Source of the DNA: a virus
Direction: 5' to 3' (one strand)
DNA: 29,045 nucleotides
Virus record (IMG/VR): IMGVR_UViG_3300011430_000035
Coordinates: 1-29,045 of that record
Below, piece by piece: positions 9,853-26,255 of the stretch. The notes under the pieces were generated by a model, which made no database searches, was not told where the DNA came from, and saw only the letters and a list, made by a program, of their open reading frames with translations. How positions within the stretch are numbered: the stretch's first letter is position 1; every line of letters begins with the position of its first letter. The position numbers were made by a program, and so were the translations under genes.

Positions 9853-9857
9853 TAACA

Positions 9858-9908: not shown

Positions 9909-9912
9909 TATT

Positions 9913-9990: not shown

Positions 9991-10052
9991 AATTTAATAT
10001 GTATTGATTAGAGAAAGACAGGATAATATATCATCCATTTAATTATGGTCCT

Positions 10053-10103: not shown

Positions 10104-10138
10104 TAATATTAAATGACGTCAATATTATCCCATCGAAT

Positions 10139-10247
10139 TTGATTGTTACCCAGTGGCTAGTACTGGACAATTAATGACACAGTGGCTCCGAGAACGATTA
10201 CGCGGTATTGTGCCCTTCATAGGCGACCATTTTGCTATAACAATCAA
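10139..10247 (-). ncRNA. Folded 109-nt RNA element closed by a 10-bp stem
   Basis: TTGATTGTTA pairs perfectly with TAACAATCAA across about 90 nt. Inside, read on the minus strand, are hairpins GCC/GGC, CCG/CGG and CCAGT/ACTGG, with GCCACTG present twice. The element is clearly GC-richer than its surroundings and ends 6 nt from the stop of the next gene at 10253. A multibranched RNA is likely. The strand is inferred from neighbouring transcription, since a perfect dyad looks the same on both strands. Confidence 0.45.
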
Positions 10248-10252
10248 TTTCC

Positions 10253-10594: not shown

Positions 10595-10863
10595 TTTTGA
10601 TTTAATTTGTTGAGAGTTTTAGTTAATAATTTTATTTCGATTTCTTGTTGTTGAATTTGATGTTCTTTTTCTTTAATTTGTGTTGATATTAAATCAACCA
10701 AATGATTACGCATTTCATTCAAGACAATAAGTCTGTCTTGTTCTGAAAAGTTGTCAAATACATATCTTGCTAGCGATTTAGCTTCATTTTTAGCTAGCGT
10801 ATTTGTACCAGGTATATATTGTATAAACAAATATAATATAAACCGTTTAAACCGCTTTCTCAT
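10591..10863 (-). CDS. Basic coiled-coil protein (90 aa)
   Basis: The N-terminus is basic with a moderately hydrophobic stretch (RFILYLFIQYIPG), followed by an amphipathic helical part. From about residue 58 there is a clear coiled coil (STQIKEKEHQIQQQEIEIKL). This could be a membrane-associated oligomer. It starts 4 nt after the stop of a 51-aa gene and ends in an ATGA overlap with the next. No family recognised. Confidence 0.65.
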   Translation of the reverse strand: MRKRFKRFILYLFIQYIPGTNTLAKNEAKSLARYVFDNFSEQDRLIVLNEMRNHLVDLISTQIKEKEHQIQQQEIEIKLLTKTLNKLNQK

Positions 10864-10867
10864 AAGA

Positions 10868-11023
10868 CTATGTAATAAGTTTCATATTGAATTTCTTATT
10901 TCTATTTGTAGCAATTTTATCTACAAGATATGCTAACATATGAGAATGATCTCTAAATACAATTTCAGCATTATATTTAGGCTTTTTCTTTTTGTGAACG
11001 TAAGGAGTTTGGTTTGAACTCAT
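10868..11023 (-). CDS. Small basic hypothetical protein (51 aa)
   Basis: ATG 11023 to TAG 10868 encodes 51 residues (start MSSNQTPYVHKKKKPKYNAE). The basic N-terminus (KKKKPK) and later RNRNKK-like patches give a strong positive charge, compatible with nucleic-acid binding. The 4-nt gap to the next gene and the 22-nt gap from the previous one fit the operon exactly, which supports it despite its size. Confidence 0.6.
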   Translation of the reverse strand: MSSNQTPYVHKKKKPKYNAEIVFRDHSHMLAYLVDKIATNRNKKFNMKLIT

Positions 11024-11045
11024 AATTAGATAGTTTTTTGGTTAG

Positions 11046-11261
11046 TTAATCTTCGTCTTTAATGTAATCTATACATCTTTTGTGATGAGCTTCATCATTA
11101 GAACAAACTTCATATTGATGAGTTTGTTGAACATTCCAATAAGTTGTTATTTTACATAAACAAGTTTTGCAAACACCAAGATCACTCTCGATGTCTGCTT
11201 CCATTTGTTTATCTATAGCTTGAGCCATAGATTTCTTATGTTTTAAGCTTTGTAAATGCAT
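11046..11261 (-). CDS. Small protein with Cys/His metal-binding motif (71 aa)
   Basis: After a Lys/Gln-rich helical N-terminus there is a compact Cys/His region: CKTCLCK (about residues 31-37) and CSNDEAHHKRC (about 53-63). C-x2-C followed by C-x9-C with His nearby is a plausible zinc site. It is coupled to the SANT-like gene upstream by a TAATG junction. Zinc-bearing phage peptides of this size often regulate transcription, but no specific family is recognised. Confidence 0.65.
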   Translation of the reverse strand: MHLQSLKHKKSMAQAIDKQMEADIESDLGVCKTCLCKITTYWNVQQTHQYEVCSNDEAHHKRCIDYIKDED

Positions 11262-11680
11262 TATTCTAATGTTTTAAGAAGTTCTACAACTTTTTTACGA
11301 TCTTCAGCTGATAAATCTAATAATTGTTTAATAACAACTATTAATGGTTTAAGAGGTTCTTCTCTTTTAAATATACCTTTTACTCTTGCTGTACTTTTAC
11401 CTTGTTTGAATCCTGCAACAGATCCTGTAAGAATAGGGCTTTTCTTTTTACCACCTCTAATAATATAATAATATCTTGCAGATATATTTTGTGGTTTTCT
11501 ATTTTTAAGTTTTCTAGCAGCTTGATCAAAAGCATGTCTTAAATTATCTGGAAATAATGCTACTGTATCCATAATAATTGTATCTTCATCTTTTGTATAA
11601 CCTTTTAAAGTTATTTTTTTAGCCGTGAAAACTTTTTTTGGAGTTTTATCCAAAACGTCATCTAATGTAATTGCATTCAT
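11261..11680 (-). CDS. Myb/SANT-like DNA-binding protein (139 aa)
   Basis: Residues about 28-77 read as a Myb/SANT-type helical domain: GYTKDEDTIIMDTVALFPDN, then FDQAARKLKNRKPQNISARY. The starting TKDED acidic helix and the later R-K-x-x-x-I-x-x-R/Y recognition helix are typical. After it comes a basic linker (RGGKKKSPILTGS) and a C-terminal helix ending LSAEDRKKVVELLKTLE. A sequence-specific DNA-binding regulator is the natural reading. It precedes the zinc-motif gene with overlapping stop/start. Confidence 0.7.
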   Translation of the reverse strand: MNAITLDDVLDKTPKKVFTAKKITLKGYTKDEDTIIMDTVALFPDNLRHAFDQAARKLKNRKPQNISARYYYIIRGGKKKSPILTGSVAGFKQGKSTARVKGIFKREEPLKPLIVVIKQLLDLSAEDRKKVVELLKTLE

Positions 11681-11703
11681 AGTGATTTAATTTATTTATT
11701 TAG

Positions 11704-11838
11704 TTAGTTAATTTTAATTTGTTTGAAACTTTTTACTATAGGTTTATTATTGCTATATTTAACAATTTTACCCCATACTTTTTTGTCATTATTATCAATA
11801 TAATACCATATATTGAATAATTTTAATAATTTTATCAT
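11704..11838 (-). CDS. Small basic hypothetical protein (44 aa)
   Basis: ATG 11838 to TAA 11704 encodes 44 residues (start MIKLLKLFNIWYYIDNNDKK), Lys-rich with aromatic residues. It lies 23 nt upstream of the SANT-like gene in the right orientation. Low-complexity A/T-rich DNA could produce it by chance, so only moderate support. Confidence 0.45.
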   Translation of the reverse strand: MIKLLKLFNIWYYIDNNDKKVWGKIVKYSNNKPIVKSFKQIKIN

Positions 11839-11864
11839 TTGATTTAGTTTTAATAAATACCCAT

Positions 11865-11918
11865 ACCCTTATAGCTTACCGAGTTATCAGTTACGGAGCT
11901 TATATAAGAGCAGGGTAT
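11865..11918 (-). ncRNA. Folded RNA element downstream of the tmRNA
   Basis: On the minus strand ATACC pairs with GGTAT, and inside it CTTATA with TATAAG, around a CCG/CGG hairpin with a 12-nt loop. The 3' side carries a tandem GGGTAT repeat, so two registers of the closing stem are possible. It is the last element of the 11.86-12.6 kb RNA block and could be its 3' end or processing site. Confidence 0.35.
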
Positions 11919-11923
11919 CTAAA

Positions 11924-12006
11924 TATTAAGCATCACCATGTTATTGCACATTTTTCCCAGTATACACGACTACTCTGGTTCAGCGGTGTCCAGCTCCTAC
12001 TTAATA
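11924..12006 (-). ncRNA. Multibranched 83-nt RNA sharing a motif with the 18.6-kb ncRNA
   Basis: The minus strand folds as TATTAAG/CTTAATA enclosing CACC/GGTG, within which CCAG/CTGG and ATGT/ACAT hairpins form. Just inside the outer stem is AGCTGGACACCGCT, a small AGC/GCT hairpin. The ncRNA at 18.6 kb has AGCTGGACACGGCAGC in an equivalent hairpin followed by a second one. The nested pairing is good; function is unknown. Confidence 0.45.
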
Positions 12007-12014
12007 CAATTAGA

Positions 12015-12059
12015 CCTACATCAGGGACTCGAACCCTGTTTAAACCTCATGTATGTAGG
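12015..12059 (-). ncRNA. tRNA acceptor/T-arm minihelix (45 nt)
   Basis: On the minus strand CCTACAT pairs perfectly with ATGTAGG (7 bp). The 3' strand directly follows a perfect 5-bp T arm (CAGGG, TTCGAGT loop, CCCTG). Only 14 nt lie between the 5' acceptor strand and the T arm, so D and anticodon arms are absent. Immediately upstream (12060-12077) is a separate hairpin ACATT, CTTTGCG, AATGT with a 7-nt loop like an anticodon arm, but in the wrong order for a normal tRNA. This is a minihelix-type tRNA mimic or a rearranged tRNA. Confidence 0.5.
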
Positions 12060-12170
12060 ACATTCGCAAAGAATGTTTTATATATTTTAATCTTATATTT
12101 TCAATTCGATGTCTTTCCACCAGTCAGTCTTATGTAAATTTACTATCATTATGAAAAACAACACAAAGTA

Positions 12171-12250
12171 TGTTGGACTTAATAGTTTTGACTCACGCAT
12201 TTACAATAGCTACCTTGCCGACAAGCAAAGATTCCTTATATAGTCCAACA
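12171..12250 (-). ncRNA. Folded 80-nt RNA element closed by a 9-bp stem
   Basis: TGTTGGACT pairs perfectly with AGTCCAACA. Inside, the minus strand has a GC-containing hairpin CTTG, TCGG, CAAG and a less structured remainder. It is close to tRNA length, but there is no T-loop consensus and no believable anticodon arm. It begins 36 nt after the tmRNA 3' end, so it may be co-transcribed and processed with it. Confidence 0.4.
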
Positions 12251-12285
12251 CTTCAAAACACCCCAGAAAGAGGGCAACCGATGTG

Positions 12286-12599
12286 TGGAGCCGGGGGGAA
12301 TCGAACCCCCGTCCATAAATGTATTCAATGTGTAATTTATATAGCTTCACGTTTTTAAATTGTTACGCTCAAAAGGGTCAGCCTGGGCTAACAATCCACC
12401 ACTCTATTTAATCTAACAGAGAAATCCTTAGAATATTATGCTGCCATCAATACTTCCTCAGAAGTAATTAAGCTACGAACTTTTGCCATATTGGCGTCAA
12501 TTTGTTTTCCATTTATTCAATTCACCTTAGTTTTAACCAGTTATCTCTCTGGGCTAATTACATCATTTACTCTCAATCATGTCAAAACCAGTCGGCCCC
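12286..12599 (-). ncRNA. ssrA: tmRNA (ssrA) with 19-residue tag
   Basis: Transfer-messenger RNA, which with SmpB and EF-Tu frees stalled ribosomes and tags the nascent protein. The minus strand opens GGGGCCGACTGGTTTTGACA, matching the tmRNA 5' consensus, and ends with a T arm (GGGGG, TTCGATT loop, CCCCC) and CGGCTCC. GGGGCCG pairs with CGGCTCC over all 7 positions (one G-U), and an A discriminator follows; CCA is not encoded. The messenger part starts after TTGAC: GCC at 12495 opens a 19-codon frame, ANMAKVRSLITSEEVLMAA, with TAA at 12438-12436. The hydrophobic-Ala-Ala end is typical of proteolysis tags, although a tag of about 8-15 residues is usual. Total length is about 314 nt, a little short for a tmRNA. 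Pseudoknots flank the tag in this family; repeated GCCCAG segments here could take part. Confidence 0.9.
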
Positions 12600-12694
12600 T
12601 TGTTGGAGTTTTGGTAGGACTCCATACCTATGGACACATTATAATATAGAGGCTAAACTAAATCACTAACTAAAACCTCTTATAATATGTCTAC

Positions 12695-12943
12695 TTAGTT
12701 AGTAGGCCAATCTGGGAGATTTTCTATTGTGATATAATTACCTTTAGATGGCATTATAAGTGTTTCTGTATATTTTGGTACATTTGTAATAATAGGTTTA
12801 TGCCTAAAATTAGCAATATCAAAAGCTTGTTCATTGGTTACATAAGAACCAGCTATACCAAGCTTTCTGGCGCGTATTCTGACTGTTTCCCGACTTATTT
12901 TATAAGCTTGGACAACTATGTCAAAATGAAAACTATCCTTCAT
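12695..12943 (-). CDS. Small helix-turn-helix-like protein (82 aa)
   Basis: The N-terminal half (FDIVVQAYKISRETVRIRAR then KLGIAGSYVTNEQAFDIANF) reads as one or two helix-turn-helix units of the type where a regulator picks a site by KISRETVRIRARKLG. The C-terminal half is Pro/Thr-rich and probably extended, ending NLPDWPTN. A small DNA-binding regulator is likely. It is the first gene downstream of the membrane cluster and lies just upstream of the tmRNA. Confidence 0.65.
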   Translation of the reverse strand: MKDSFHFDIVVQAYKISRETVRIRARKLGIAGSYVTNEQAFDIANFRHKPIITNVPKYTETLIMPSKGNYITIENLPDWPTN

Positions 12944-13097
12944 TTAACATATATAATGTTAATAAATAAAGAAATATAGTAACTGAAAGATAATAACCAA
13001 GTCTATTTCTAGATATCTTTCTACGTAATACCATACAAAATTCTAAAGTTGATAGTATTGTTGAAAATACTAACAAAGTTACACAAAAGGTTATCAT
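12933..13097 (-). CDS. Two-pass membrane microprotein (54 aa)
   Basis: ATG 13097 to TAG 12933 encodes 54 residues: a first helix (MITFCVTLLVFSTILSTLEF), a basic loop (RRKISRNR) and a second helix (YYLSVTIFLYLLTLYML). The ATG overlaps the upstream TGA (ATGA), and the end overlaps the next start by 11 nt. Both junctions support a real gene. Function unknown. Confidence 0.6.
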   Translation of the reverse strand: MITFCVTLLVFSTILSTLEFCMVLRRKISRNRLGYYLSVTIFLYLLTLYMLNEG

Positions 13098-13285
13098 GGA
13101 TTAAACATATTATAAATTATTACAATATTTATAATAATAAATGCTAAATATGTAGCCAAAAATCCTAATACGTTTGGTTCAGGAGCTTCTACACTTCTAG
13201 ACCACCAATTTAACAAGTTAACTATAACAACATCTATTAAAAATAAAGATATTGCTAATGTATCTGTTGGGATTTCTATAATCAT
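13094..13285 (-). CDS. Two-pass membrane protein (63 aa)
   Basis: Two hydrophobic helices (DTLAISLFLIDVVIVNLLNW and LGFLATYLAFIIINIVIIYN) are separated by a short charged loop with SRSVEAPEP. The start overlaps the upstream stop by 4 nt and the end overlaps the next ATG (ATGA). It is part of a chain of tiny inner-membrane genes from 12.9 to 14.6 kb. No family recognised. Confidence 0.62.
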   Translation of the reverse strand: MIIEIPTDTLAISLFLIDVVIVNLLNWWSRSVEAPEPNVLGFLATYLAFIIINIVIIYNMFNP

Positions 13286-13464
13286 GCGTTTAAAATATAT
13301 CCAAGGTTAAACAATAATATTATTGCAACTCCAGTTAATGCTAAACCAGCAAGAACTTTACCTACAATACCATCTGAATGTGTATCATTCCAATACACAA
13401 GTGTGTGCCACCAATAAGCACCTACTAATAATAATATTAGTATAATCAATATAAATCTTTCCAT
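13282..13464 (-). CDS. Two-pass membrane protein (60 aa)
   Basis: An N-terminal helix (FILIILILLLVGAYWWHTLV) and a C-terminal one (VLAGLALTGVAIILLFNLGY) flank a loop with WNDTHSDG. The start shares bases with the stop of the 59-aa gene upstream (TAATG). Similar in size and plan to its downstream neighbour, though the residues do not align well enough to call them paralogues. Confidence 0.62.
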   Translation of the reverse strand: MERFILIILILLLVGAYWWHTLVYWNDTHSDGIVGKVLAGLALTGVAIILLFNLGYILNA

Positions 13465-13643
13465 TATGTAATTATTATTGTTGATCTACTACTTTGTTTT
13501 GTTTCTCTATTATTTAATGCCTGCCAACGTTCTTCTAGAATATTATATTGTTTAACAATACTATCATTCATCATTTCTATTGGAAGGTCAAATAAAAATT
13601 GCATTTTACGTGCAATAATATTCATTTCTTCTTGTCTACTCAT
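13464..13643 (-). CDS. Small helical soluble protein (59 aa)
   Basis: Mostly helical and polar (MSRQEEMNIIARKMQFLFDL, later YNILEERWQALNNRETK) with a Ser/Thr/Ile-rich tail. I use ATG 13643, which overlaps the upstream stop by only 8 nt; an in-frame ATG at 13649 and a TTG at 13652 are alternatives. It is a soluble member among small membrane genes and might act as a cytoplasmic partner. Confidence 0.58.
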   Translation of the reverse strand: MSRQEEMNIIARKMQFLFDLPIEMMNDSIVKQYNILEERWQALNNRETKQSSRSTIIIT

Positions 13644-13902
13644 TAACATCAATTATATAAGTTGAATTAACGGTTTTAATAATCATCTTTTCTTCATCAA
13701 ATTCTTCTATATCTGATGTTAAAAGTTTTGGACCAGAAGTAAGGTCAAGTGTTGGATATAAATATAATCTTGAACCAATTGTGATTCTATCATATTTAAA
13801 ATAACCTTGAATTGCTCTTGAGCCAATAGGCAGTTTCCCAGCAAGGGCCTCACCAGGAACTCTGTCTTCGATCTTGGTGAGGATTAAGTATTTACCTTTC
13901 AT
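13636..13902 (-). CDS. Hypothetical beta-rich protein (88 aa)
   Basis: The gene starts at ATG 13902 inside a TAATG junction (MKGKYLILTKIEDRVPGEAL). The same frame stays open to 14238, but that region encodes a membrane protein in another frame and the extension there is Arg/Tyr/Asn-rich nonsense. The body looks beta-rich (RAIQGYFKYDRITIGSRLYL; MIIKTVNSTYIIDVNE). No family recognised. Confidence 0.62.
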   Translation of the reverse strand: MKGKYLILTKIEDRVPGEALAGKLPIGSRAIQGYFKYDRITIGSRLYLYPTLDLTSGPKLLTSDIEEFDEEKMIIKTVNSTYIIDVNE

Positions 13903-14123
13903 TAGTCTTCTGTTACGGCGTCGTTGATATAAATACCAGCGACAACCCAGCCAATAATAGTACCTATCCAATATGGTACTGATGTTGTAATAATGTGTGA
14001 AAATGTTTCTTCTGAACATATTGCTATACTCATTGAAATAACTGTAGGCACTAAATTGCCTAAAAATAAGATACATAATATAATTAATGCACCTTCTCCT
14101 GTTTTGTAAATAATTTTTTCCAT
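13902..14123 (-). CDS. Two-pass membrane protein (73 aa)
   Basis: Helices at about residues 10-34 (GALIILCILFLGNLVPTVIS) and 49-67 (PYWIGTIIGWVVAGIYI), with a polar C-terminus. The leader AAATCACAAC before its ATG resembles that of several other genes of this arm. It is coupled by TAATG to the 88-aa gene. Function unknown. Confidence 0.62.
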   Translation of the reverse strand: MEKIIYKTGEGALIILCILFLGNLVPTVISMSIAICSEETFSHIITTSVPYWIGTIIGWVVAGIYINDAVTED

Positions 14124-14159
14124 TTTGTTGTGATTTAGTTTGTTTGTGTTTAAATTGAT

Positions 14160-14354
14160 TTAATCGAACATTGCTAAAATAAATACCCATACTATAGCAC
14201 CTGGTATTGTAATAGGTGCAAATAATATAAGTAACCATTCAGATAAGTTTAAAGTTTTATCTTTATCTTCATGTGTCCAGTATAATACTATACTTAAAAA
14301 ATACATTGCTGTACAATAATATAATATACCTTCCATATAATTATCCATGACCAT
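14160..14354 (-). CDS. Two-pass membrane protein (64 aa)
   Basis: First helix ILYYCTAMYFLSIVLYW, a charged loop THEDKDKT, and a second helix WLLILFAPITIPGAIVWVFI. ATG 14354 overlaps the end of the upstream gene by 14 nt; ATG 14348 is also possible. It belongs to the same run of tiny membrane genes. No family recognised. Confidence 0.6.
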   Translation of the reverse strand: MVMDNYMEGILYYCTAMYFLSIVLYWTHEDKDKTLNLSEWLLILFAPITIPGAIVWVFILAMFD

Positions 14355-14598
14355 TTTCTTCTAAGAAGTTAATAGCATCGTTAACAGTAGCATTACCAAC
14401 TACAATAGTATCTTGTGAAGATTTTCTAATTATAAGCAATGCACCATCTAATGATATATTCTTATTGTCTTCGTGTATAATTATTGTATGATGATTATGT
14501 CTAGGTTTTTCAGGATTTGTTTGAACTGAATATTTAAGAAATTGAGCTGATATTAAAAGCATGAAGCCTATAATAATTAATGTTATACCTATTTTCAT
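14341..14598 (-). CDS. Membrane-anchored protein with His patch (85 aa)
   Basis: An N-terminal anchor helix (ITLIIIGFMLLISAQFL) is followed by a His-rich strand (KPRHNHHTIIIHED) and a small domain ending in a helix, TVNDAINFLEENGHG. The His cluster could bind metal but may simply be a surface patch. The ATG follows an A/T-rich leader after a 150-nt gap (14599-14748) in which I see no gene. Function unknown. Confidence 0.6.
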   Translation of the reverse strand: MKIGITLIIIGFMLLISAQFLKYSVQTNPEKPRHNHHTIIIHEDNKNISLDGALLIIRKSSQDTIVVGNATVNDAINFLEENGHG

Positions 14599-14748
14599 AA
14601 TTTAATTGATTTGTGTTTTACACCTGAAACTTATACTCCTATTATACAATGTAGTTGTTTACAAAGTATTATATTTATATAAGAACTAAGGTGCCCTCAA
14701 CAACTTGGGAAGTTATTTAAGTTTTTGTAACGTCATGATTAAGGTACG

Positions 14749-15027
14749 TTATTCTGTAAGCCATTTTAAAGCTTCTTCTGCATTATTAAAGGTAAATGCA
14801 GTTATAGGATATTTAGATGATAAATCTTGTACAAGTTCTTTTTTTGAAGAATATTGTCGTGAATGAGTACTATTAAATACAGCAACAAGATATCTATTTA
14901 TTGTAAAACATTCTTTTCGATTTTTTACAACAATATATTTCTTATTTTTATGTATTATTCCTATTTTAGATGCTTCATTAATATCATTTAATGGTATTAT
15001 ATTTGGAGTTAAAATTATTGTTTTCAT
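14749..15027 (-). CDS. Small basic hypothetical protein (92 aa)
   Basis: A 92-aa soluble protein, beta then alpha in feel: MKTIILTPNIIPLNDINEAS, GIIHKNKKYIVVKNRKEC, and a C-terminal helix NNAEEALKWLTE. The last part resembles the end of the 85-aa His-patch protein (a short helix with A-x-x-x-L), but too briefly to claim homology. It starts 1 nt after the next gene's stop. Function unknown. Confidence 0.62.
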   Translation of the reverse strand: MKTIILTPNIIPLNDINEASKIGIIHKNKKYIVVKNRKECFTINRYLVAVFNSTHSRQYSSKKELVQDLSSKYPITAFTFNNAEEALKWLTE

Positions 15028-15028
15028 T

Positions 15029-15277
15029 TTAAAATATTTGTTTTGTTATGTTACAATAAAATCCATCTTCTGATTTAAAAGAATATATTTTATCGTCTTG
15101 AAATACTAATCTAAATCTTCTGAATTGATTAGTTTTTGGGTTAATAATATTAAATTGTTGTGGTCCATTAGGAAATGGAATTGCAAAATTAGGAATATGT
15201 AAATCTGTTTCTTTTGCATAAAGAGTTTTAAGGGTTTTACTATATGAGAAAAACCCTATATTATAGTTAAATTTCAT
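15029..15277 (-). CDS. Hypothetical aromatic-rich protein (82 aa)
   Basis: An 82-aa protein with a beta-rich, Phe/Tyr-rich composition (MKFNYNIGFFSYSKTLKTLY; RRFRLVFQDDKIYSFKSED). No membrane helix. The start overlaps the TGA of the 50-aa membrane gene upstream (ATGA). No family recognised. Confidence 0.62.
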   Translation of the reverse strand: MKFNYNIGFFSYSKTLKTLYAKETDLHIPNFAIPFPNGPQQFNIINPKTNQFRRFRLVFQDDKIYSFKSEDGFYCNITKQIF

Positions 15278-15426
15278 TTACTTATTTGTACTATTGCTCT
15301 TATTATAATAAATATAACAATAAGCACTATTAATATTGGTAAGAATTCAATTATACTACTAACCATTTTAAATAAGAACCATCCTGTAAGAAATATAGCT
15401 AATGCTCCAAATAAAAATTGTTTCAT
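15274..15426 (-). CDS. Membrane microprotein (50 aa)
   Basis: ATG 15426 to TGA 15274 encodes 50 residues made of two adjoining hydrophobic stretches (FLFGALAIFLTGWFLFKMV; FLPILIVLIVIFIIIRAIV). The leader TTAAATCACA directly before the ATG matches that of other genes here, and the end is an ATGA overlap. Function unknown. Confidence 0.58.
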   Translation of the reverse strand: MKQFLFGALAIFLTGWFLFKMVSSIIEFLPILIVLIVIFIIIRAIVQISK

Positions 15427-15432
15427 TGTGAT

Positions 15433-15843
15433 TTAATTTTTGTAAGTATATACTATATACTCTTTTTGTTTGTTATTGTATTCATAAATGTCAAACTTAG
15501 TTGACGTACTGCCATCTTGCCACACATAACCTGTATTAAACTCGATTACATATATTTCATCATTACCTGTTAAGAATTTAATGATATAATGATTTGATTC
15601 AATTACTTGATATTGAAAATCATCAATAAATAATGTATTAGCTTTAGGATTAAATTTAATATGTATTGTAGATGGTGCAAATGGAGCTTTATCCATATTA
15701 CCATCAACTACTAACATAAATTTATCACCTATAATATCTACACCTAATTGAGGATTTGTAAGTTTCATTTCAATAGGTTCAGTTGAACAAGAAGATACTA
15801 CTACTAATAGAAGTAGTAGTATCAATTTAGTTACTTGTTTCAT
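15433..15843 (-). CDS. Phage-encoded lipoprotein (136 aa)
   Basis: A clear type II signal: basic start MKQVTK, a Leu/Val-rich core, and the lipobox VSSC with Cys19 as the lipidated residue. The mature part is beta-rich (LVVDGNMDKAPFAPSTIHIK, then HYIIKFLTGNDEIYVIEFN). It should sit in the inner or outer membrane facing the periplasm or exterior. Phage lipoproteins commonly block receptor recognition by further phages (superinfection exclusion), so that is a reasonable hypothesis. It is coupled to the 151-aa gene upstream by overlapping stop and start. Confidence 0.75.
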   Translation of the reverse strand: MKQVTKLILLLLLVVVSSCSTEPIEMKLTNPQLGVDIIGDKFMLVVDGNMDKAPFAPSTIHIKFNPKANTLFIDDFQYQVIESNHYIIKFLTGNDEIYVIEFNTGYVWQDGSTSTKFDIYEYNNKQKEYIVYTYKN

Positions 15844-16298
15844 TATTGTGCAAGTGCTAATTCTAATTCAACTTTATCACATTGTGTGTGATTTACCCAT
15901 TCTTTGACAGTAATAGTATTACCTCTAGAATCAAATGTTGCATAAGCTATTTCAAGCTTGTTGTCAGCATATGGATTAATATCTACTATTTCAGCAGTAT
16001 CAATATCTTTAGATGAACGAACTCTTTCGCCTTCATCATTTGTACCCCAATAACTGTATTTATTTAAATTAGTTGGTTTAACAATATTACCAACTTCAAA
16101 GTTTATCTCTTGATTATAACCATTTAATGAGTTATATAACATAGATATACCTGTTTTATCATATGATAACATACGGCCAATAAGAGTTTCAACAACTAAT
16201 TCGTTATGTTTAAACTCTGGATTCATATTGTCTAACAATTGTTTAGCAATTGAGTCTACAGATACTTCTACTTTAATGCTTTGATTGAAATTTTTCAT
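15843..16298 (-). CDS. Hypothetical soluble protein (151 aa)
   Basis: A 151-aa acidic soluble protein. The N-terminal part is amphipathic (MKNFNQSIKVEVSVDSIAKQ), followed by a beta-rich core (NFEVGNIVKPTNLNKYSYW; DTAEIVDINPYADNKLEIAY) that could be an SH3-like barrel, and a helical end. It is coupled to the lipoprotein gene downstream. No family recognised. Confidence 0.65.
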   Translation of the reverse strand: MKNFNQSIKVEVSVDSIAKQLLDNMNPEFKHNELVVETLIGRMLSYDKTGISMLYNSLNGYNQEINFEVGNIVKPTNLNKYSYWGTNDEGERVRSSKDIDTAEIVDINPYADNKLEIAYATFDSRGNTITVKEWVNHTQCDKVELELALAQ

Positions 16299-16333
16299 TG
16301 TGTTTAAGATATTTAATTAATTATTTGTTTTAT

Positions 16334-16555
16334 TTAATTTTCGCTGATGTTATTAATGTGTAATAACTTCTTTAATGCAACTATTTGATGTAATTCATCA
16401 AGAGATTCATCTAACATATTATGCATTTCTTTTAAGTCTTTACGACTATTAATGAGATCAGATACTCTACCTGTTCTAAGAATAGTAGAATATATTTCAT
16501 GTAATGAGTTTATAGTTGTTGCAACTATAAGCAAATGTTTATCTTCGTTACTCAT
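16334..16555 (-). CDS. Small helical protein (73 aa)
   Basis: Almost entirely helical by pattern (LIVATTINSLHEIYSTILRT, then SRKDLKEMHNMLDESLDELH), with Leu and His at heptad-like spacing, suggesting a short helical bundle or coiled coil. The start overlaps the end of the upstream 53-aa gene by 8 nt. Function unknown. Confidence 0.62.
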   Translation of the reverse strand: MSNEDKHLLIVATTINSLHEIYSTILRTGRVSDLINSRKDLKEMHNMLDESLDELHQIVALKKLLHINNISEN

Positions 16556-16709
16556 GTGTTTTAAATGTTAAAGTTGAATGAGTAATACTGAAGATGTTGT
16601 CATTATATCTTGATACGATATTAAATCGTTTAATCAAAGATACTCTTACTGGATTAGATGATGCAACTAACTGACCACAGCTATTGAATCTTAGACGTCT
16701 TTTTGACAT
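16548..16709 (-). CDS. Small basic protein (53 aa)
   Basis: ATG 16709 to TAA 16548 encodes 53 residues with a basic start (MSKRRLRFNSCGQLVASSNP) and a positive charge throughout. A nucleic-acid-binding peptide is possible. The 8-nt overlap with the next gene fits the operon. No family recognised. Confidence 0.55.
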   Translation of the reverse strand: MSKRRLRFNSCGQLVASSNPVRVSLIKRFNIVSRYNDNIFSITHSTLTFKTHE

Positions 16710-16729
16710 AATAATAAGGTTTAGTTTGG

Positions 16730-16897
16730 TTAAAGTTTAATTTTAAATATGCATAAGCTTAATCTACATAATGCCATAGGCACTAAGAATATAAGGAAAT
16801 TATTAAATGCTGATTCACTAACTTGATAACATAAATATCCAATTAGTAATAATAATACGATAACAAAGACTAATAGTCCTTTAACTAAATTGTTCAT
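16730..16897 (-). CDS. Two-pass membrane microprotein (55 aa)
   Basis: ATG 16897 to TAA 16730 encodes 55 residues: a helix (GLLVFVIVLLLLIGYLCYQ), a short polar loop (SESAFNN) and a second helix (FLIFLVPMALCRLSLCIF) ending in Lys. It is the first gene of this operon stretch after the structured element at 16938-17018. Function unknown. Confidence 0.58.
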   Translation of the reverse strand: MNNLVKGLLVFVIVLLLLIGYLCYQVSESAFNNFLIFLVPMALCRLSLCIFKIKL

Positions 16898-16937
16898 AAG
16901 TATAAGTTTAGTGATTAAGATTGTATAAAATAAGCAA

Positions 16938-17018
16938 TTATACGCCGTTTATTGTAGATCGAACAGGCATGTTTAGTGCTACAATGTCTCCCGGGAAACT
17001 GATTCTAACGACGTATAA
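16938..17018 (-). ncRNA. Strongly folded 81-nt RNA element
   Basis: TTATACG pairs perfectly with CGTATAA, continued by CGTT/AACG. Two inner hairpins follow: GTTTC, CCGG, GAGAC, and a perfect 7-bp ATTGTAG/CTACAAT with a 21-nt loop that contains the T-loop-like GTTCGATC. The dyads hold on either strand; minus is chosen from surrounding transcription. It is one of the best-paired elements in the window. No known class recognised. Confidence 0.5.
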
Positions 17019-17039
17019 AAGCTATTATATAAATTTGAG

Positions 17040-17296
17040 TATTTGATATTGGACGCTTTGTAGGAAATTTGAGGTTGATATTGGTAGCTTTGTCGACAAT
17101 TCTGTCCACGAAAGCTCTACTTATACCACAATACAACAACGACGAAGGAGTTGAGACTCTCGCCGAAGGCAACCTTTACCTCGAACGACTGACTGAATGA
17201 CGAATGAACGACGAAGGAGTGAGTGAGGAATGAAGGAAGGAGTGAGAGTAGTGGTAGTATGCACGCAAAACAAAACACGAGCGGAGCGAGCTAAGC
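17040..17296. other. Gene-free stretch with degenerate purine-rich repeats
   Basis: No convincing gene. From about 17135 the plus strand becomes GC-richer and purine-biased. It carries repeats built from GACGAAGGAGT (near 17141 and 17211) and short GAATGA/GAAGGA/GAGTGA units, and ends in GAGCGGAGCGAGC. The composition is unlike the surrounding AT-rich DNA. It lies just beyond the terminator of the first minus-strand gene. It could be a structured 3' region, a protein-binding repeat array or imported DNA. Confidence 0.4.
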
Positions 17297-17333
17297 AAAA
17301 AAAGAAATAGAGAGTGTTTTACCACTCTCTATT
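17297..17333 (-). terminator. Intrinsic terminator after the acidic-tailed gene
   Basis: An 11-bp perfect stem (AATAGAGAGTG with CACTCTCTATT, 6-nt loop) is followed on the minus strand by TTC and seven T. It lies 11 nt beyond the stop of the 186-aa gene, so that gene can be transcribed as a single unit, separate from the rest of the arm. Confidence 0.85.
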
Positions 17334-17343
17334 ATAAGGAATA

Positions 17344-17904
17344 CTATTCCTGCTCTTCTTCTGTGTCTGCACCTGCAAGCTTGGCAACACGATTAGTGGA
17401 AGACTCTTCAGATACAGGCTTTTCAACAGCCTCTTCTTTAACCTCTTCAACATCTTCGCCTGAAGCCTTTTGTGCGAATGCAAACATAGCATTGAAATCA
17501 TCATTGTCGATTTCATCAACAACTCTTAATCCTCCGCAAGAGAAGTTAACACGAGTCTTATCATCTGATGGACGCATAGTTAACCAATAGCAAGCACCTA
17601 CCTCAATAACAGCAATACGAGGATTTCCTGCCTCGTCTTCGCCTCCATTGAAAATAACTGCAACCTCTTTTTCTTTACCGTTCATAAGCACCTTAGCGGT
17701 ACCGCGGTAAAATTCCTTTCTATCCACAGTTGCTGGTTGTGGATTAGGATTTAGACTTGAAACAGTTCCCGCGACTTGAATGTCTTGAGGGCCTTGAGTT
17801 CCGTCTTTACGTTGAGAATAAGACTTTACAAGCTCGCCTGTAACTTCATCTCTTTTCATTGCTAAACGTGGTTTAGTGGACGTGTGTAACTTAGATTGTG
17901 ACAT
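17344..17904 (-). CDS. Acidic-tailed protein, possible ssDNA-binding protein (186 aa)
   Basis: A basic N-terminus (SKLHTSTKPRLAMKRDEVTG) leads into a beta-rich core (about residues 60-125: FYRGTAKVLMNGKEKEVAVI, then NPRIAVIEVGACYWLTMRPS) and a long acidic, disordered tail from about 145 ending DTEEEQE. A beta core with an acidic C-terminal tail is the layout of phage single-stranded-DNA-binding proteins, but I cannot identify OB-fold signature residues. It is the only gene between the regulatory hub and a strong terminator, which implies independent and abundant expression. That would suit an SSB-like protein. Confidence 0.6.
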   Translation of the reverse strand: MSQSKLHTSTKPRLAMKRDEVTGELVKSYSQRKDGTQGPQDIQVAGTVSSLNPNPQPATVDRKEFYRGTAKVLMNGKEKEVAVIFNGGEDEAGNPRIAVIEVGACYWLTMRPSDDKTRVNFSCGGLRVVDEIDNDDFNAMFAFAQKASGEDVEEVKEEAVEKPVSEESSTNRVAKLAGADTEEEQE

Positions 17905-17972
17905 AATGGAAATTGTATTATGTGACTACACGCTGATTCATAGCTGTAGTAGCCACGATTTATAATGAATGA

Positions 17973-17987
17973 CAAAGACTATCTTTG
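17973..17987. promoter_or_regulatory. Palindromic site overlapping a promoter-like -7 box
   Basis: CAAAGA-cta-TCTTTG is a perfect 6-3-6 dyad. Its plus-strand half is TATCTTTG, a Bacteroidota -7 box; the minus strand gives TAGTCTTTG, off by one base in spacing. It sits 69 nt upstream of the 186-aa gene start, so it could be the operator/promoter of that gene. Confidence 0.4.
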
Positions 17988-18528
17988 CCTAAATTCGATG
18001 AAGGTATAGTGATGATTCAACTTACAACGCAATACAATATATACCAACTAATGAATATAATACCATTATACCTATATATGTATAGTGTACGCATACACAT
18101 AGTGTAGCCTATAGTACACACCACATATGGGTCACACACGCAGTGTGTGTATTACCCACTATAGCACAGCAATAGTATGTATTATATTAGTAGTTGGTAG
18201 TGTGCAAGTGTAGCATAAGCGATAACTCGTACAGCTGAGGGTGGAATTCGAAGAATTCCTTTAGCGTCGATATACGTAATGCAGTTGGCGGTGAATCTAC
18301 TTTTACCTATGGGGGATATCCCCAAAACTCGATTAAGGTGGGGTGATGTTTCAACTTAGTCCACTCTCACACACCTAAAAAAATTTTATAAAAAAAATTT
18401 TGCGGAAAAGTGTCATAGACTGTTCTTGTAAAGCTACTATTTACAAGACTTAACACCACTTTAAACCAGTAACATATATGATAGTAATAGAAGGAAGTAT
18501 ATATATATAGTTGGTTAAATTGACATTT

Positions 18529-18547
18529 TAGCTATTACTTAATATAA
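18529..18547 (+). repeat. 19-nt repeat, copy 1 (upstream of plus-strand arm)
   Basis: TAGCTATTACTTAATATAA, identical to 28451-28469. The two copies lie in the only two intergenic gaps of the plus arm that precede a major transcription unit, so this may be a promoter for a phage-encoded RNA polymerase or another shared control site. Confidence 0.6.
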
Positions 18548-18562
18548 CTTTTTTGAAAATAG

Positions 18563-18605
18563 TTGCAAAAAAATTAGGATTTGTCAAATATATTCCGTAT
18601 CTTTG
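18563..18605 (+). promoter_or_regulatory. Promoter P1 (Bacteroidota type) for the ncRNA
   Basis: TTGC (18563), TTAG (18574-18577, the -33 position), 20 nt, then TATCTTTG (18598-18605). It aligns without gaps with P2 and P3: the distance from TTGC to the -7 box is 35 nt in all three, and AATTAGGA-x-TTGTC is shared. Transcription should begin a few bases past 18605. Confidence 0.8.
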
Positions 18606-18609
18606 TACT

Positions 18610-18878
18610 AAGATATAAAGATGCAACTAGTTAAGGATATGGTTGCCCAATTTAGCTGGACACGGCAGCACTACACAGTAGGTTTGGGATAACGGGTTTT
18701 GAGAGGTATGACAACTTCCATAACACTGGCTAGCCAAGCGGACCACATAACCAAGAAGACGGGTTATCGTGGAAACCTCTCTATATCTATAAGACAACAA
18801 CAGTATACTATTGTATACCTAAGTAATACAACAACAACATTAGTCCATATACCCACTTCAAAAGAGTGGGTTTTTTTT
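18610..18878 (+). ncRNA. Free-standing structured ncRNA gene (about 270 nt)
   Basis: The gene lies between promoter P1 and an intrinsic terminator and contains no believable reading frame. Pairing visible in it: CCCAA/TTGGG enclosing hairpins AGCTGGACACGGCAGC and CTAC-aca-GTAG; GAGAGGT (18701-18707) with ACCTCTC (18775-18781) enclosing CCACATAACC (18743-18752) with GGTTAT-c-GTGG (18762-18772); and GTATAC-tatt-GTATAC. I checked for tmRNA, 6S, RNase P and tRNA hallmarks and found none. The AGCTGGACAC hairpin recurs in the RNA at 11924-12006. A regulatory or host-directed phage RNA is likely. Confidence 0.7.
18852..18878 (+). terminator. Intrinsic terminator of the ncRNA
   Basis: CCCACT and AGTGGG (6 bp, 7-nt loop) are followed by eight T. 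It lies upstream of promoter P2, so the ncRNA and the protein operon are separate transcripts. Confidence 0.88.
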
Positions 18879-18891
18879 ATTTTAAAAATAA

Positions 18892-18934
18892 TTGCAAATA
18901 AATTTGGAAATGTGATTTTTTTTCACTATCTTTG
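18892..18934 (+). promoter_or_regulatory. Promoter P2 for the plus-strand operon
   Basis: TTGC (18892), a perfect -33 TTTG (18903-18906), 20-nt spacer with a T8 run, and -7 TATCTTTG (18927-18934). The first ATG follows at 18952, giving a very short leader. It is the best consensus of the three promoters. Confidence 0.85.
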
Positions 18935-18951
18935 TATAAATAATTTAAAAC

Positions 18952-19194
18952 ATGATTATACCAACAACAGCAGATTGCTCAGATCAATGTCCTTACTTTG
19001 AGGCAGATATTAACACTGATGGACAGACTCAAGGGTTTAAGGATTGGGTTAAACAAATTACTCAATGTAAGCATAAGATATTCCTACCAGATGGAACGTC
19101 GTTAGATTACAAACTTTTTATGGATTCTATCAATGATAGATTTAAAAACAATGACTTTACTAATTACTTAATTAATCACTACAATGAGCTCTGA
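18952..19194 (+). CDS. Small protein, tandem paralogue A (80 aa)
   Basis: First protein gene of the plus arm. It starts with a short Cys/Asp-rich segment (TADCSDQCPYFEAD). The core shares a pattern with the next protein: W-V/L-x-x-I-x-x-x-x-HK-I/V-x-LPD (here WVKQITQCKHKIFLPDGTSL), followed by a helical end with F-x-x-YL. Duplicated small domains at the head of an early operon often act on host functions, but nothing specific is recognised. The end overlaps the next start by 11 nt. Confidence 0.7.
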   Translation: MIIPTTADCSDQCPYFEADINTDGQTQGFKDWVKQITQCKHKIFLPDGTSLDYKLFMDSINDRFKNNDFTNYLINHYNEL

Positions 19195-19372
19195 AGACAA
19201 ATACAATGAATGGTTAGAATCTATAGTACATTTACAACATAAAGTGATTTTACCAGATCAACATACTATAGATAAGACGAGATGGACATCTCATAAGGGT
19301 TTTAACTCAACAGGATTCTACTCTTACTTAAAGGATTTATACGAAGCTAAATATAAGAAAGATGACAAATAA
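19184..19372 (+). CDS. Small protein, tandem paralogue B (62 aa)
   Basis: Shares WLESIVHLQHKVILPDQHTI and the helical end with YLKDLY with the preceding protein, so the two arose by duplication; the Cys-bearing start of paralogue A is missing. It overlaps its neighbours on both sides by 11 nt. Function unknown. Confidence 0.68.
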   Translation: MSSEDKYNEWLESIVHLQHKVILPDQHTIDKTRWTSHKGFNSTGFYSYLKDLYEAKYKKDDK

Positions 19373-19547
19373 TAAATTTAATATAGGAGATGAGGTTTAT
19401 CATGTTACTCCTGAATCAGAGAAAGGTGTTATAGTAGAGGTTAACTATTCGTTTTCACTTGATAGATATGCCTACACAGTAGCTACTTCATGGAATACAG
19501 AATACGTTTGTGCAGAGCATGAATTAACTGAACATAAAAACTTTTAA
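19362..19547 (+). CDS. Small SH3/KOW-like protein (61 aa)
   Basis: Reads as a single small beta-barrel: KFNIGDEVYHVTPESEKGVI, VEVNYSFSLDRYAYTVATSW, then a short acidic end (CAEHELTEHKNF). The opening GD-x-V and G-x-x-x-V pattern is that of KOW/SH3 folds, as in the N-terminus of the 243-aa protein at 6330. A nucleic-acid or protein adaptor is possible. Last gene before promoter P3. Confidence 0.66.
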   Translation: MTNNKFNIGDEVYHVTPESEKGVIVEVNYSFSLDRYAYTVATSWNTEYVCAEHELTEHKNF

Positions 19548-19553
19548 AAATAA

Positions 19554-19596
19554 TTGATAAAAAATTAGGAATTGTCGTTTTTTTTACGTACCTTTG
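19554..19596 (+). promoter_or_regulatory. Promoter P3 within the plus-strand arm
   Basis: TTGA (19554), TTAG in the -33 position (19565-19568), 20-nt spacer with T8, and -7 TACCTTTG (19589-19596). It aligns base for base with P1 and P2. It lies in a 73-nt gap and would drive the genes from 19621 onward. Confidence 0.8.
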
Positions 19597-19620
19597 TACT
19601 ATAATTTAAAAACATAGAAT

Positions 19621-19815
19621 ATGTGGTTAACAAAATCAATAGAAGTTACCCTAGGAGATAAAGATACAGAGATGTTGCTTGGAATATATAATCAAGCGTT
19701 TGATGGATTTCCAGTAGATGAAGATGGTGAACCAATTTTAGATAATGAGCCTATTAGAATTAATAGATGCTTAATAGGATTTTTAATTTTTAACATAGGT
19801 ATATATTATAAGTAA
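19621..19815 (+). CDS. Small acidic hypothetical protein (64 aa)
   Basis: First gene after promoter P3. The N-terminal two thirds are acidic and soluble (MWLTKSIEVTLGDKDTEMLL; FPVDEDGEPILDNEP), and the last 15 residues are hydrophobic (CLIGFLIFNIGIYYK), perhaps a buried helix. The stop shares bases with the next ATG. No family recognised. Confidence 0.65.
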   Translation: MWLTKSIEVTLGDKDTEMLLGIYNQAFDGFPVDEDGEPILDNEPIRINRCLIGFLIFNIGIYYK

Positions 19816-20105
19816 TGGTAGAAGATATTTATTTTTACATAAGACAAGATCTGATTTTACATCAGGATGATTTATTAAACTTACAGAATTATTATACACA
19901 TAAGTATAGAAGCAAAGATGTAAGACTTGATATTAATGTAGGTATATTTCTAAATGACAATCAAGAAGATGTTGTTCAGATATATGTAGCAGATAAGTTT
20001 ACTAAGATACGTGAGCAACTAATACTAAAGAATAATAAGATTATAGATTCAATTTTAACATTAAAAAGATTTACACATGAACAGGAAGATAGAGAGAGAG
20101 ATTAG
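19815..20105 (+). CDS. Hypothetical protein (96 aa)
   Basis: Soluble, alpha/beta, with IYFYIRQDLILHQDDLLNLQ near the start, a beta strand pair (DVRLDINVGIFLNDNQEDVV) and a charged helical end. The pattern of two strands with D-x-x-V resembles the protein at 20891, hinting at a shared small fold, but the identity is low. The end overlaps the next gene by 29 nt. Confidence 0.66.
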   Translation: MVEDIYFYIRQDLILHQDDLLNLQNYYTHKYRSKDVRLDINVGIFLNDNQEDVVQIYVADKFTKIREQLILKNNKIIDSILTLKRFTHEQEDRERD

Positions 20106-20352
20106 TTCTAGTCATTTAGAAATATTTAGTACAACTAATGGTATTGTAGATGAAGATAATATTAGATTCGCTAAAGAGAATTTACTATTTGCAGCAATGA
20201 GACGTAATACAGATTTAGTTGAAGTACATAAAGAATATCCAAAAGATAATATGACTAATGTTAGATTTGACTTAGATGTAATAGTTCTATCTAGATCTCG
20301 ATATAACGAAATGAAAGAACATGAAGATAACTATTTAAAACTTTGTAACTAA
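20077..20352 (+). CDS. Hypothetical protein (91 aa)
   Basis: Soluble, helical first half (DNIRFAKENLLFAAMRRNTD), then a strand-rich stretch (NVRFDLDVIVLSRSRYNEM) and a polar end. The NVRFDLDV strand resembles VRLDINVG in the preceding protein, so the two might be distant duplicates. ATG 20352 of the next gene overlaps its stop. Function unknown. Confidence 0.65.
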   Translation: MNRKIEREISSSHLEIFSTTNGIVDEDNIRFAKENLLFAAMRRNTDLVEVHKEYPKDNMTNVRFDLDVIVLSRSRYNEMKEHEDNYLKLCN

Positions 20353-20642
20353 TGAGTTCGTTTAATAAAGCAGGACAACGACAAGCTAGACAAGTGCTTG
20401 ACAGGAAGACTAAGAAACATGTAAAAGCATTCTATAAGATTATTGGAGAAATGGAAGACATCTCTAAACAATTAGATCCATCTATAGAATATAATGAAGA
20501 GAATATAAATGAATATGTATTACCTATTTATGGTAGAGAATTAGATCATATGGAGAAGTTTATTATCTTAGGTAAGATGAGTGACAGAGGTACTAATATA
20601 GGTAAGGAATTTCATGAGCGAAAAGAAGATAACGCTAGCTAA
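20352..20642 (+). CDS. Hypothetical basic helical protein (96 aa)
   Basis: Starts with a basic stretch (NKAGQRQARQVLDRKTKKHV), followed by acidic helices (IGEMEDISKQLDPSIEYNEE) and a C-terminal part with Lys/Asp/Glu mix. The basic start could contact nucleic acid. It overlaps the next gene by 29 nt in another frame. No family recognised. Confidence 0.66.
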   Translation: MSSFNKAGQRQARQVLDRKTKKHVKAFYKIIGEMEDISKQLDPSIEYNEENINEYVLPIYGRELDHMEKFIILGKMSDRGTNIGKEFHERKEDNAS

Positions 20643-20904
20643 TATATTATCTTTTGTAGAAGGTAATATGCAGTTAATATTAGAAGGACTAAATCGTCAG
20701 CCACAGCATATTAGAGAACAGATTGCATACAGAAGATTATTATGCAAAGACGACTGCGCCGTAGATAACAAATGCGTATACTGTGGTTGTGATTTTTTAG
20801 GTAAAACTTCAGTAGTGAAGAGTTGTAATAAAGGTGTAAGGTTTCCCAACCTTATGAGTAAACCTAGATGGGAGAAATTTAAAATAGACAATGGGATTCA
20901 ATAA
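20614..20904 (+). CDS. Zinc-ribbon-like protein (96 aa)
   Basis: A helical N-terminus (ITLANILSFVEGNMQLILEG) precedes a Cys-rich segment: LCKDDCAVDNKCVYCGCDFL (about residues 44-63) with a further Cys near 72. C-x3-C-x5-C-x2-C-x-C is a plausible zinc site. Proteins with a short zinc knuckle are frequent in phage early and middle regions. No named family. Confidence 0.66.
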   Translation: MSEKKITLANILSFVEGNMQLILEGLNRQPQHIREQIAYRRLLCKDDCAVDNKCVYCGCDFLGKTSVVKSCNKGVRFPNLMSKPRWEKFKIDNGIQ

Positions 20905-24772: not shown

Positions 24773-26255
24773 AGAAATATTTTTTACTAACGAAGCTAGG
24801 GATAGGCTTTTTGAGGGCGTAAGAAAGTTACATGATGCTGTAGCTTCAACGATGGGTCCTAATGGTAAAACAGTTATACTTTCAGACGAATATGGATTAC
24901 CTCGTATAACTAAAGATGGCGTTAGTGTCTCAAGAGCGATTAATTTTAGAGATCCTATTGAACAGATTGGAGCCACACTTATCAAAGAGGTTGCAGAAAG
25001 AACGGTTAACCAAGCTGGAGATGGAACTACCACTGCTACGGTACTTGCGTGGGCGTTAATAAATAATTTAAAAGAGTTTAATTCTAACGATGTTAATAAA
25101 GCATTCGATGAAATCATACCTAAAGTTCTTCAATATCTTAAAGATAACTCTAGAGAACTTAAACAAGACGAAATTAAATATGTTGCTAGTATATCTGCTA
25201 ATAATGATATACAGATTGGTAATATTATTCAGCAAGCTTATAATTTTTCTAATCTAGTTAAAGTAGAGGAGTCTAATCAGTTTGAGGATTCTATTGAGTA
25301 TATTGATGGAATGAAGTTAGATGTGTCATACTTTTCTAAACATTTCTCTAATACTAAGAAAGAGACTTGTGAATATCATAATCCTTATATATTATTAGTA
25401 GATGGTAAAATAGAAGATCTCATGCCTCTTAAAAACATCCTAACAGATATATCATCTACAGATAAGTCCATACTTATTATAGCAGAACATGTGTCTGAAA
25501 AGGAGATGAGAAAGCTAGAATCAAATGTTCTGTCCAGTAATATAAACTTATGTGTTATTAAAACGCCAGGATTTGGCCCTATAAGGAAAGATTTCCTCAG
25601 AGATATATCAGACTTCACTGGAGCAGAGATCGTGTCTATAATGCCAAATAAACAAGTTTCATGTAAAGCACTTGGACAACTAGAATCATGTACTATTACA
25701 AAGAATCACTCTTTACTTATTAAACATGAAGATATTGATGTAGAAGATATTGTATCTAGTCTCGCCACAATGAGAGATGAAACTCCTGATCTTACAGAAC
25801 ATGATAAAGATATTTTATCTAAACGTATTGAAAACTTAACTGGTAAAGCTGTCATTATTAGAGTAGGAGGTAAATCAGAGATTGAAATGAAAGAACGTAA
25901 AGACAGATATGAAGATGCTGTACTTGCAGTAGCATGTGCATTAGAAGAAGGTATTATAGAAGGTGGAGGAGTAGCTTTCGAAAGAATGAAAATAAAATTA
26001 CATTTAGATTGGCCTACACCTGAAGATGAAACTGAATTTGTTATTCAGAATAGAATGATAGCATGTCTTAGCGCTCCATTGAATCAAATAAACATAAATG
26101 GTTGTAACGTAAATACATTAAGCGGAAGTATGTTTGATAAAAATATTATAGATCCACTTAAGGTTACTCGTTGCGCTTTAGAAAATGCAGTATCAGTCGC
26201 TAAGACGGTACTATCAACAGACTGTATAGTCTTAAATCCAAATCAATGGAATTAA
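24765..26255 (+). CDS. GroEL-like chaperonin (Cpn60)
   Basis: A 496-aa group I chaperonin homologue, shorter than GroEL (about 548). Key parts present are STMGPNGKTVIL (28-39), ITKDGVSVSR (48-57, with the ATPase Asp51), GDGTTTATVL (85-94), IIAEHVSEKEM and KTPGFGPIRK in the apical domain, and KDRYEDAVLAV with ALEEGIIEGGG in the equatorial return (the catalytic Asp398 region). The C-terminal GGM tail is missing: the protein ends LNPNQWN. It should form ATP-driven rings, probably with the phage GroES-like protein. The position just before terL suggests a virion-protein client. It overlaps terL by 10 nt. Confidence 0.93.
   Translation: MNKEIFFTNEARDRLFEGVRKLHDAVASTMGPNGKTVILSDEYGLPRITKDGVSVSRAINFRDPIEQIGATLIKEVAERTVNQAGDGTTTATVLAWALINNLKEFNSNDVNKAFDEIIPKVLQYLKDNSRELKQDEIKYVASISANNDIQIGNIIQQAYNFSNLVKVEESNQFEDSIEYIDGMKLDVSYFSKHFSNTKKETCEYHNPYILLVDGKIEDLMPLKNILTDISSTDKSILIIAEHVSEKEMRKLESNVLSSNINLCVIKTPGFGPIRKDFLRDISDFTGAEIVSIMPNKQVSCKALGQLESCTITKNHSLLIKHEDIDVEDIVSSLATMRDETPDLTEHDKDILSKRIENLTGKAVIIRVGGKSEIEMKERKDRYEDAVLAVACALEEGIIEGGGVAFERMKIKLHLDWPTPEDETEFVIQNRMIACLSAPLNQININGCNVNTLSGSMFDKNIIDPLKVTRCALENAVSVAKTVLSTDCIVLNPNQWN

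Follow-up and report, generated by a model that had tools for sequence, protein, structure and literature searches.

A candidate late-expressed, structured RNA gene found as an accessory element in one clade of crAss-like phages

Main finding

The DNA analysed here (the window, a virus record of 29,045 bases) carries, where its leftward and rightward arms meet, what its sequence marks as a stand-alone noncoding RNA gene with its own promoter and terminator signals in a crAss-like phage. We propose, with a probability of about one half, that this gene at 18610-18878 represents a new family of stand-alone structured RNA, accessory in one clade of Crassvirales, that is made late, acts in trans and occupies a variable host factor. 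That a real structured noncoding RNA is encoded is almost certain; its being late and trans-acting is rather probable, and its being a decoy for a host factor is a tentative suggestion.

The terminase encoded at 26246-28450 shares 39-42% identity with Steigviridae (Crassvirales) terminases, which identifies the phage, as far as this protein can tell, as crAss-like and of a lineage outside the named records. The RNA locus has a GC content of 43%, against 31% for the window. The same phage carries on the minus strand (888-3318) an NAD+ salvage pair, a phosphoribosyltransferase-type protein adjoining NAMPT/NAPRTase, which may counteract defence by NAD depletion. Besides the RNA, a further noncoding element is conserved at 18310-18383, with a partial copy at 17985-18024; it occurs in more relatives than the RNA does, close to the gene that opens the left arm (some 50-110 nt before it where inspected by eye), and could be a left-arm promoter or leader, or an origin.

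The gene and its signals

The signals that delimit the gene are as follows.

18530-18544, plus strand: upstream element AGCTATTACTTAATA, 60 nt before the -7 box; an identical 15-mer lies at 28452, before the portal gene
18574-18605, plus strand: Bacteroidota-type promoter, TTAG (-33) at 18574-18577 and TATCTTTG (-7) at 18598-18605
18610-18878, plus strand: predicted noncoding RNA transcript of about 270 nt, its start placed from the -7 box and its end from the terminator
18851-18879, plus strand: intrinsic terminator ACCCACTTCAAAAGAGTGGGT-T8, an 8-bp stem (18851-18871) followed by T8

A preliminary description of this DNA had seen a promoter and an intrinsic terminator framing some 270 nt, and both are borne out, the promoter being of Bacteroidota type rather than sigma-70; a scan for sigma-70 promoters yields no more matches than chance. 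On the plus strand the Bacteroidota pattern TTxG-N20-TANNTTTG occurs only at 18574, 18903 and 19565, and the next gene downstream has its own promoter at 18903. The layout upstream of the homologs is similar to that of the window. The terminator at 18851-18871 is the sole plus-strand terminator found between 18.5 and 29.0 kb, and terminators of differing sequence follow 14 of 15 homologs, 63-136 nt 3' of the core, the exception being L007, where the RNA runs on into a DUF5856 gene. The RNA had also been called the first product of the plus arm, which is not always so among relatives, as plus-strand ORFs precede it in L009, L011, L014, L006 and L052. In L011 a tRNA-Thr(UGU) at 6600-6673 sits between promoter and RNA, and one transcript may therefore hold both.

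The earlier view that the region holds no gene is upheld. Its sole long plus-strand frame, 18699-19001, reads through the terminator, and in relatives the frame from the same ATG has only about its first 10 codons in common, stopping after 11 to 46 codons where that of the window is still open after 50. Helix P1 of the fold described below accounts for most of the base changes within these shared codons. A coding peptide (MTTS..) is ruled out by this decay and by changes that mostly fit P1, and the comparison of frames in relatives, which bears on the preliminary description's own caveat of a translated conserved peptide, revealed none. Promoter and terminator signals of its own, compensatory changes in a conserved structure and the lack of a conserved ORF together mark the locus as a stand-alone structured noncoding RNA.

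A conserved pseudoknot

The minimum-energy fold of 18610-18878 reaches -70.9 kcal/mol, compared with -53.4 +/- 4.5 for shuffles (z -3.9; none of 200 as good). Comparative data point to a different fold, a pseudoknot formed by the crossing of two helices, the long-range P1 of 11 bp and the 7-bp H4. The strands follow each other in the order P1-5', H2, H4-5', P1-3', H5, H4-3', an H-type arrangement in which two of the loops each contain a hairpin; its parts in the window are the following.

18627-18642, plus strand: P1 5' strand, CUAGUU-AAGGA-UAUGG (6 bp, internal loop, 5 bp)
18646-18688, plus strand: H2 hairpin domain, CCCAA (18646-18650) with UUGGG (18684-18688), and an inner hairpin at 18655-18669
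18701-18707, plus strand: H4 5' strand, GAGAGGU, crossing P1
18718-18733, plus strand: P1 3' strand, CCAUA-ACACU-GGCUAG
18743-18772, plus strand: H5 hairpin, CCAC-AUAACC with GGUUAU-C-GUGG, varying in length and sequence among relatives
18775-18781, plus strand: H4 3' strand, ACCUCUC

The strong long-range pairing first noted thus stands in so far as the fold beats all 200 shuffles and the 11-bp P1 is conserved, with the amendment that the minimum-energy fold is not the conserved one. For the comparison, helix strands were cut at sequence anchors and counted on a concatenated alignment with shuffled and slid controls. Overall, 98.4% of the cells are paired, with double changes at 14 of 24 pairs. 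P1 is paired in every cell (100%) and has double changes at 6 of its 11 pairs, its 5-bp part occurring as UAUGG/CCAUA, UACAG/CUGUA, UAUUG/CAAUA, UGUAG/CUACA and UACUG/CAGUA, and its 6-bp part as CUAGUU/GGCUAG, CUUAUU/GGUAAG and CUUAUA/UAUAAG. H4 is paired in 98% of the cells (double changes at 2 of 7 pairs). Both P1 and H4 were anchored on invariant sequence and do not lean towards the model, except that one T of L006 was dropped in the P1 loop. H2, nearly all of whose sequence is replaced between members, has double changes at all six pair positions and 96% of its cells paired, figures that do lean towards the model because the register of its 3' strand was picked by best pairing and that of L005 was set by hand.

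The covariation score of 0.547 stands against 0.185 for shuffles (none of 500 as high), a control that overstates significance because the sequences are related, and against at most 0.125 for slid partners, a control that is independent of relatedness and from which the separation is still clear. P1 taken alone likewise lies above its controls. The CAAC/GUUG hairpin of the energy fold is invariant among members, so covariation says nothing on it, and it would be hard to form alongside a fully paired P1. A GATAAC/GTTATC pairing in the window was dropped, as it is not conserved in relatives.

The conserved core spans about 170 nt and holds some 55 invariant bases, many of them in internal loops and joints: AGGA/ACACU inside P1, GGGUUU, AUGACRACUU, GCCAAG and GGAA. 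Conservation is highest in the helices and inner loops, and the 3' tail is poorly conserved and seemingly unstructured in several members.

A sharply bounded family

A search with PhoH gave 32 related loci. Apart from the window's own record, an nhmmer search that used 18610-18878 as query retrieved clear copies from several related contigs (E 3e-10 to 4e-50), and core patterns brought the total to 20 contigs with 17 distinct sequences, beyond which two looser or wider viral patterns added none. The preliminary description had proposed a covariance search in crAss-like phages; a covariance model gives bimodal scores, with members at 144-205 bits and nothing else above about 20 bits, so that the family is sharply bounded. 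All homologs belong to one clade of uncultured Crassvirales. On a tree of PhoH, for those loci that have it, the RNA is confined to one clade (support 99/94) and is patchy within it, its presence and absence needing 6 changes, at least 3 of which are forced by well-supported branches.

Outside this clade, the covariance model gave nothing above 20 bits in seven whole named phage genomes, blastn against annotated phages matched mostly promoter-like pieces, and no copy was found in plasmids. Two exact-pattern scans of GTDB genomes returned 0 and 5 matches, the five being about the chance expectation for 18 fixed bases and falling in Bathyarchaeia-type, Chloroflexota, Oscillospiraceae and unnamed bacterial contigs. 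No cellular copy from which the RNA might derive was found by exact patterns and blastn, a search that could miss distant copies.

A promoter module in common with head genes

The element AGCTATTA lies about 60 nt upstream of the -7 box at the RNA promoter and likewise at 28452 before the portal gene; it is possibly an activator site. As a module, AGCTAT-N60..62-TANNTTNG, it occurs in exactly three copies in each of six genomes (G001, G005, G006, G007, G011 and G013). Where genes were mapped, the three sites fall at this RNA and immediately on either side of portal, before and after it; in the others of the six genomes the copies are spaced alike. The reversed pattern had no matches in related genomes. 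The remaining related genomes have extra matches inside genes or lack one copy, and G018 (L010), which is without the RNA, has the module only at the two head-gene places. At 18903 and 19565 lie promoters of small genes that do not have the upstream element. Sites at 28452-28527 of the window and at 16509 and 19026 of L005, in which AGCTATTA precedes a TATATTTG-type -7 box by about 60 nt, form a candidate late promoter class.

In cultured crAss-like phages the virion polymerase makes the early and middle genes, and the late genes, terminase and structural proteins included, are probably transcribed by host polymerase (review PMC10136315). A promoter module common to the RNA, the portal and the post-portal genes argues for late rather than early expression, and the probable transcription of late structural genes by host polymerase (PMC10136315) makes this more likely. 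We therefore infer that the RNA is expressed late, with the head genes; the earlier proposal that it is made early from host RNA polymerase finds no support in a promoter that makes up a set of three with those of the portal and post-portal head genes.

An accessory gene in an exchangeable slot

The relatives L014 and L015 are 99.06% identical over 12.6 kb (8088-20653) that begin at the terminator and take in PhoH, GroEL, terminase and portal; just upstream of the slot they are 94% identical. Between the same promoter and terminator L014 has this RNA, and L015 has an unrelated noncoding stretch and a GIY-YIG-type gene (180 aa, T5orf172/MUG113). Its presence or absence in near-identical phages suggests that the RNA is an accessory gene, and the near identity of the motor DNA makes it unlikely to be a required motor part. 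It is also absent from L010 and L003; the former keeps the gene order with neither RNA nor late module at the slot.

The stretch in L015 (7218-7500) is conserved in L008 (7939-8196), a second noncoding RNA candidate that occupies in L015 the slot of the RNA and is followed in both phages by a gene of 178-180 aa, the protein of L008 having overlapping PHROG matches. A third noncoding stretch, L003:6343-6690, has the same kind of promoter upstream and a GGGGATTTTTATATCTA end much like that of L015, and folds no better than shuffles. HNH, GIY-YIG or endonuclease VII-like genes lie beside the slot in L006, L014, L015, L035, L036 and L042 and could drive its exchange, in which case the swapping could be due to neighbouring homing endonucleases instead of an arms race.

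Proposed role and alternatives

The proposal is that a free RNA of about 270 nt would be made late, alongside the head genes, and that its pseudoknot would display invariant loops that bind a protein or ribonucleoprotein. With many of the some 55 invariant bases in internal loops and joints, a shaped binding surface is suggested. The preliminary description had listed regulation of host or phage mRNAs, sequestration of a protein and inhibition of a defence system as possible roles; the patchy distribution and cassette swapping favour a variable, host-facing target. Most likely this target would be a host factor that varies from one host to the next, for instance a defence or stress effector, which the RNA would occupy in trans as a decoy or aptamer, protecting or favouring late infection. 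Given the late-type promoter, the gene's own terminator and the swapping of cassettes, our best guess is that the RNA acts in trans and occupies a variable host factor. A broader version, which we regard as possible if rather doubtful, sees a swappable site for RNA effectors in the slot that lies between a late promoter of head-gene type and a terminator: unrelated structured RNAs (this one, that of L015 and L008, and perhaps the L003 stretch) would be exchanged there as counter-measures that act in trans against host factors.

A cis-acting leader, modifying RNA polymerase or controlling its own terminator in the manner of HK022 put/EAR or of a riboswitch, would let the late promoter read on into PhoH-GroEL-terminase. 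In its favour, the RNA comes directly after a promoter where the arm starts and ahead of that arm's only plus-strand terminator, and in L007, as in L015, L008 and L003 with their unrelated noncoding stretches, the slot opens straight into a gene. The downstream genes, however, have their own promoters, no other plus-strand terminators that would need antitermination were found from 18.5 to 29.0 kb, L010 has the same gene order with neither the RNA nor the late module at this slot, and no pairing between core and terminator was seen by eye, all of which makes a leader unlikely. A small RNA that regulates phage or host mRNAs by base pairing, as the length, the terminator and the unstructured-looking tail of several members would allow, likewise has a small chance of being right: conservation is concentrated in the helices and inner loops rather than in the tail, the possible place of a seed, and two words derived from the loops have no antisense match elsewhere in the window.

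The P3 and P7 helices of group I introns have the same crossing strand order as P1-hairpin-H4-P1'-hairpin-H4', and this resemblance, together with the endonuclease genes that adjoin the slot in several relatives, might point to a remnant of a ribozyme or mobile element. Such an origin is quite improbable given that no group I or other ribozyme matches in Rfam at E up to 10, that no gene is interrupted and that the ends are set by promoter and terminator. Lower still do we rate a part in head assembly or DNA packaging akin to phi29 pRNA: a compact, pseudoknotted RNA with a promoter class in common with the portal and post-portal genes would suit it, but L015 does without the RNA and has an unrelated stretch in its place, although its terminase and portal DNA is 99% identical to that of L014, the RNA is also missing from L010 and L003, and Rfam has no pRNA match.

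Should the RNA prove to be the counter-measure proposed above, crAss-like phages would use exchangeable RNA effectors late in infection.

Comparison with known RNA families

None of 4227 Rfam models matches 18610-18878, either at the gathering cut-off or at E up to 10, in keeping with the first impression that tmRNA, 6S and RNase P do not fit. The window does hold a complete phage tmRNA on the minus strand at 12283-12599 (Rfam 83.7 bits, tag GKQIDANMAKVRSLITSEEVLMAA), one of 8 among 24 records searched that score over the cut-off; a partnership with tmRNA was dropped, since it occurs in members and non-members alike. TROVE has been mentioned for crAss001 early genes (PMC10136315), and a Y RNA, the Ro60/TROVE partner, was set aside because PF05731 is absent from 26 records, several of them fragments. 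For a group I intron there is no core match in Rfam and no split gene was seen, and the locus has its own promoter and terminator.

Like HK022 put and EAR it is a structured RNA that comes immediately after a promoter heading an operon; unlike them, it is followed by its own terminator, with no further plus-strand terminators found downstream. It resembles phi29 pRNA as a compact phage RNA gene, here with a promoter class common to the portal gene, and differs in being absent from a phage with a near-identical motor (L015) and in lacking an Rfam match. The type III antitoxin RNAs (ToxI, CptI, TenpI) and the abiF motif RF03085 likewise come from genes for structured RNA; those of ToxI type form pseudoknots, and in C. 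difficile the abiF RNA ends at a terminator of its own, both of which features are predicted here. In contrast to type III antitoxins, this locus has no tandem repeats, no recognised toxin gene adjoining and no Rfam match, and a single pseudoknot, not an array, whose P1 and H4 enclose whole hairpins. The abiF motif was rejected for want of an Rfam match. By analogy, the RNA could in principle neutralise a type III-like toxin.

In the open literature searched, with closed journals and most preprints outside its scope, there is no report of a conserved noncoding RNA in Crassvirales. A structured phage RNA of unassigned function is a kind that has precedents, and the family and its architecture are new to the sources searched. 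GOLLD and ROOL are phage-encoded structured RNAs, often near tRNA genes, and GOLLD is up during phage lysis (PMC12286853). The present RNA resembles them in being phage-encoded and structured, with a late-type promoter and, in L011, an adjoining tRNA-Thr, and in a related phage, cr111_1, tRNA genes form an island ahead of GroEL-terminase. It differs from GOLLD in its size, about 270 nt where many GOLLD RNAs exceed 800 nt (PMC12286853), and in architecture, and has no match to the Rfam covariance models of GOLLD or ROOL. Those RNAs are large and difficult to work on; the small size of the present one, its covariation-backed pseudoknot, its clear promoter class and a natural pair of near-identical phages with and without it make its function directly testable.
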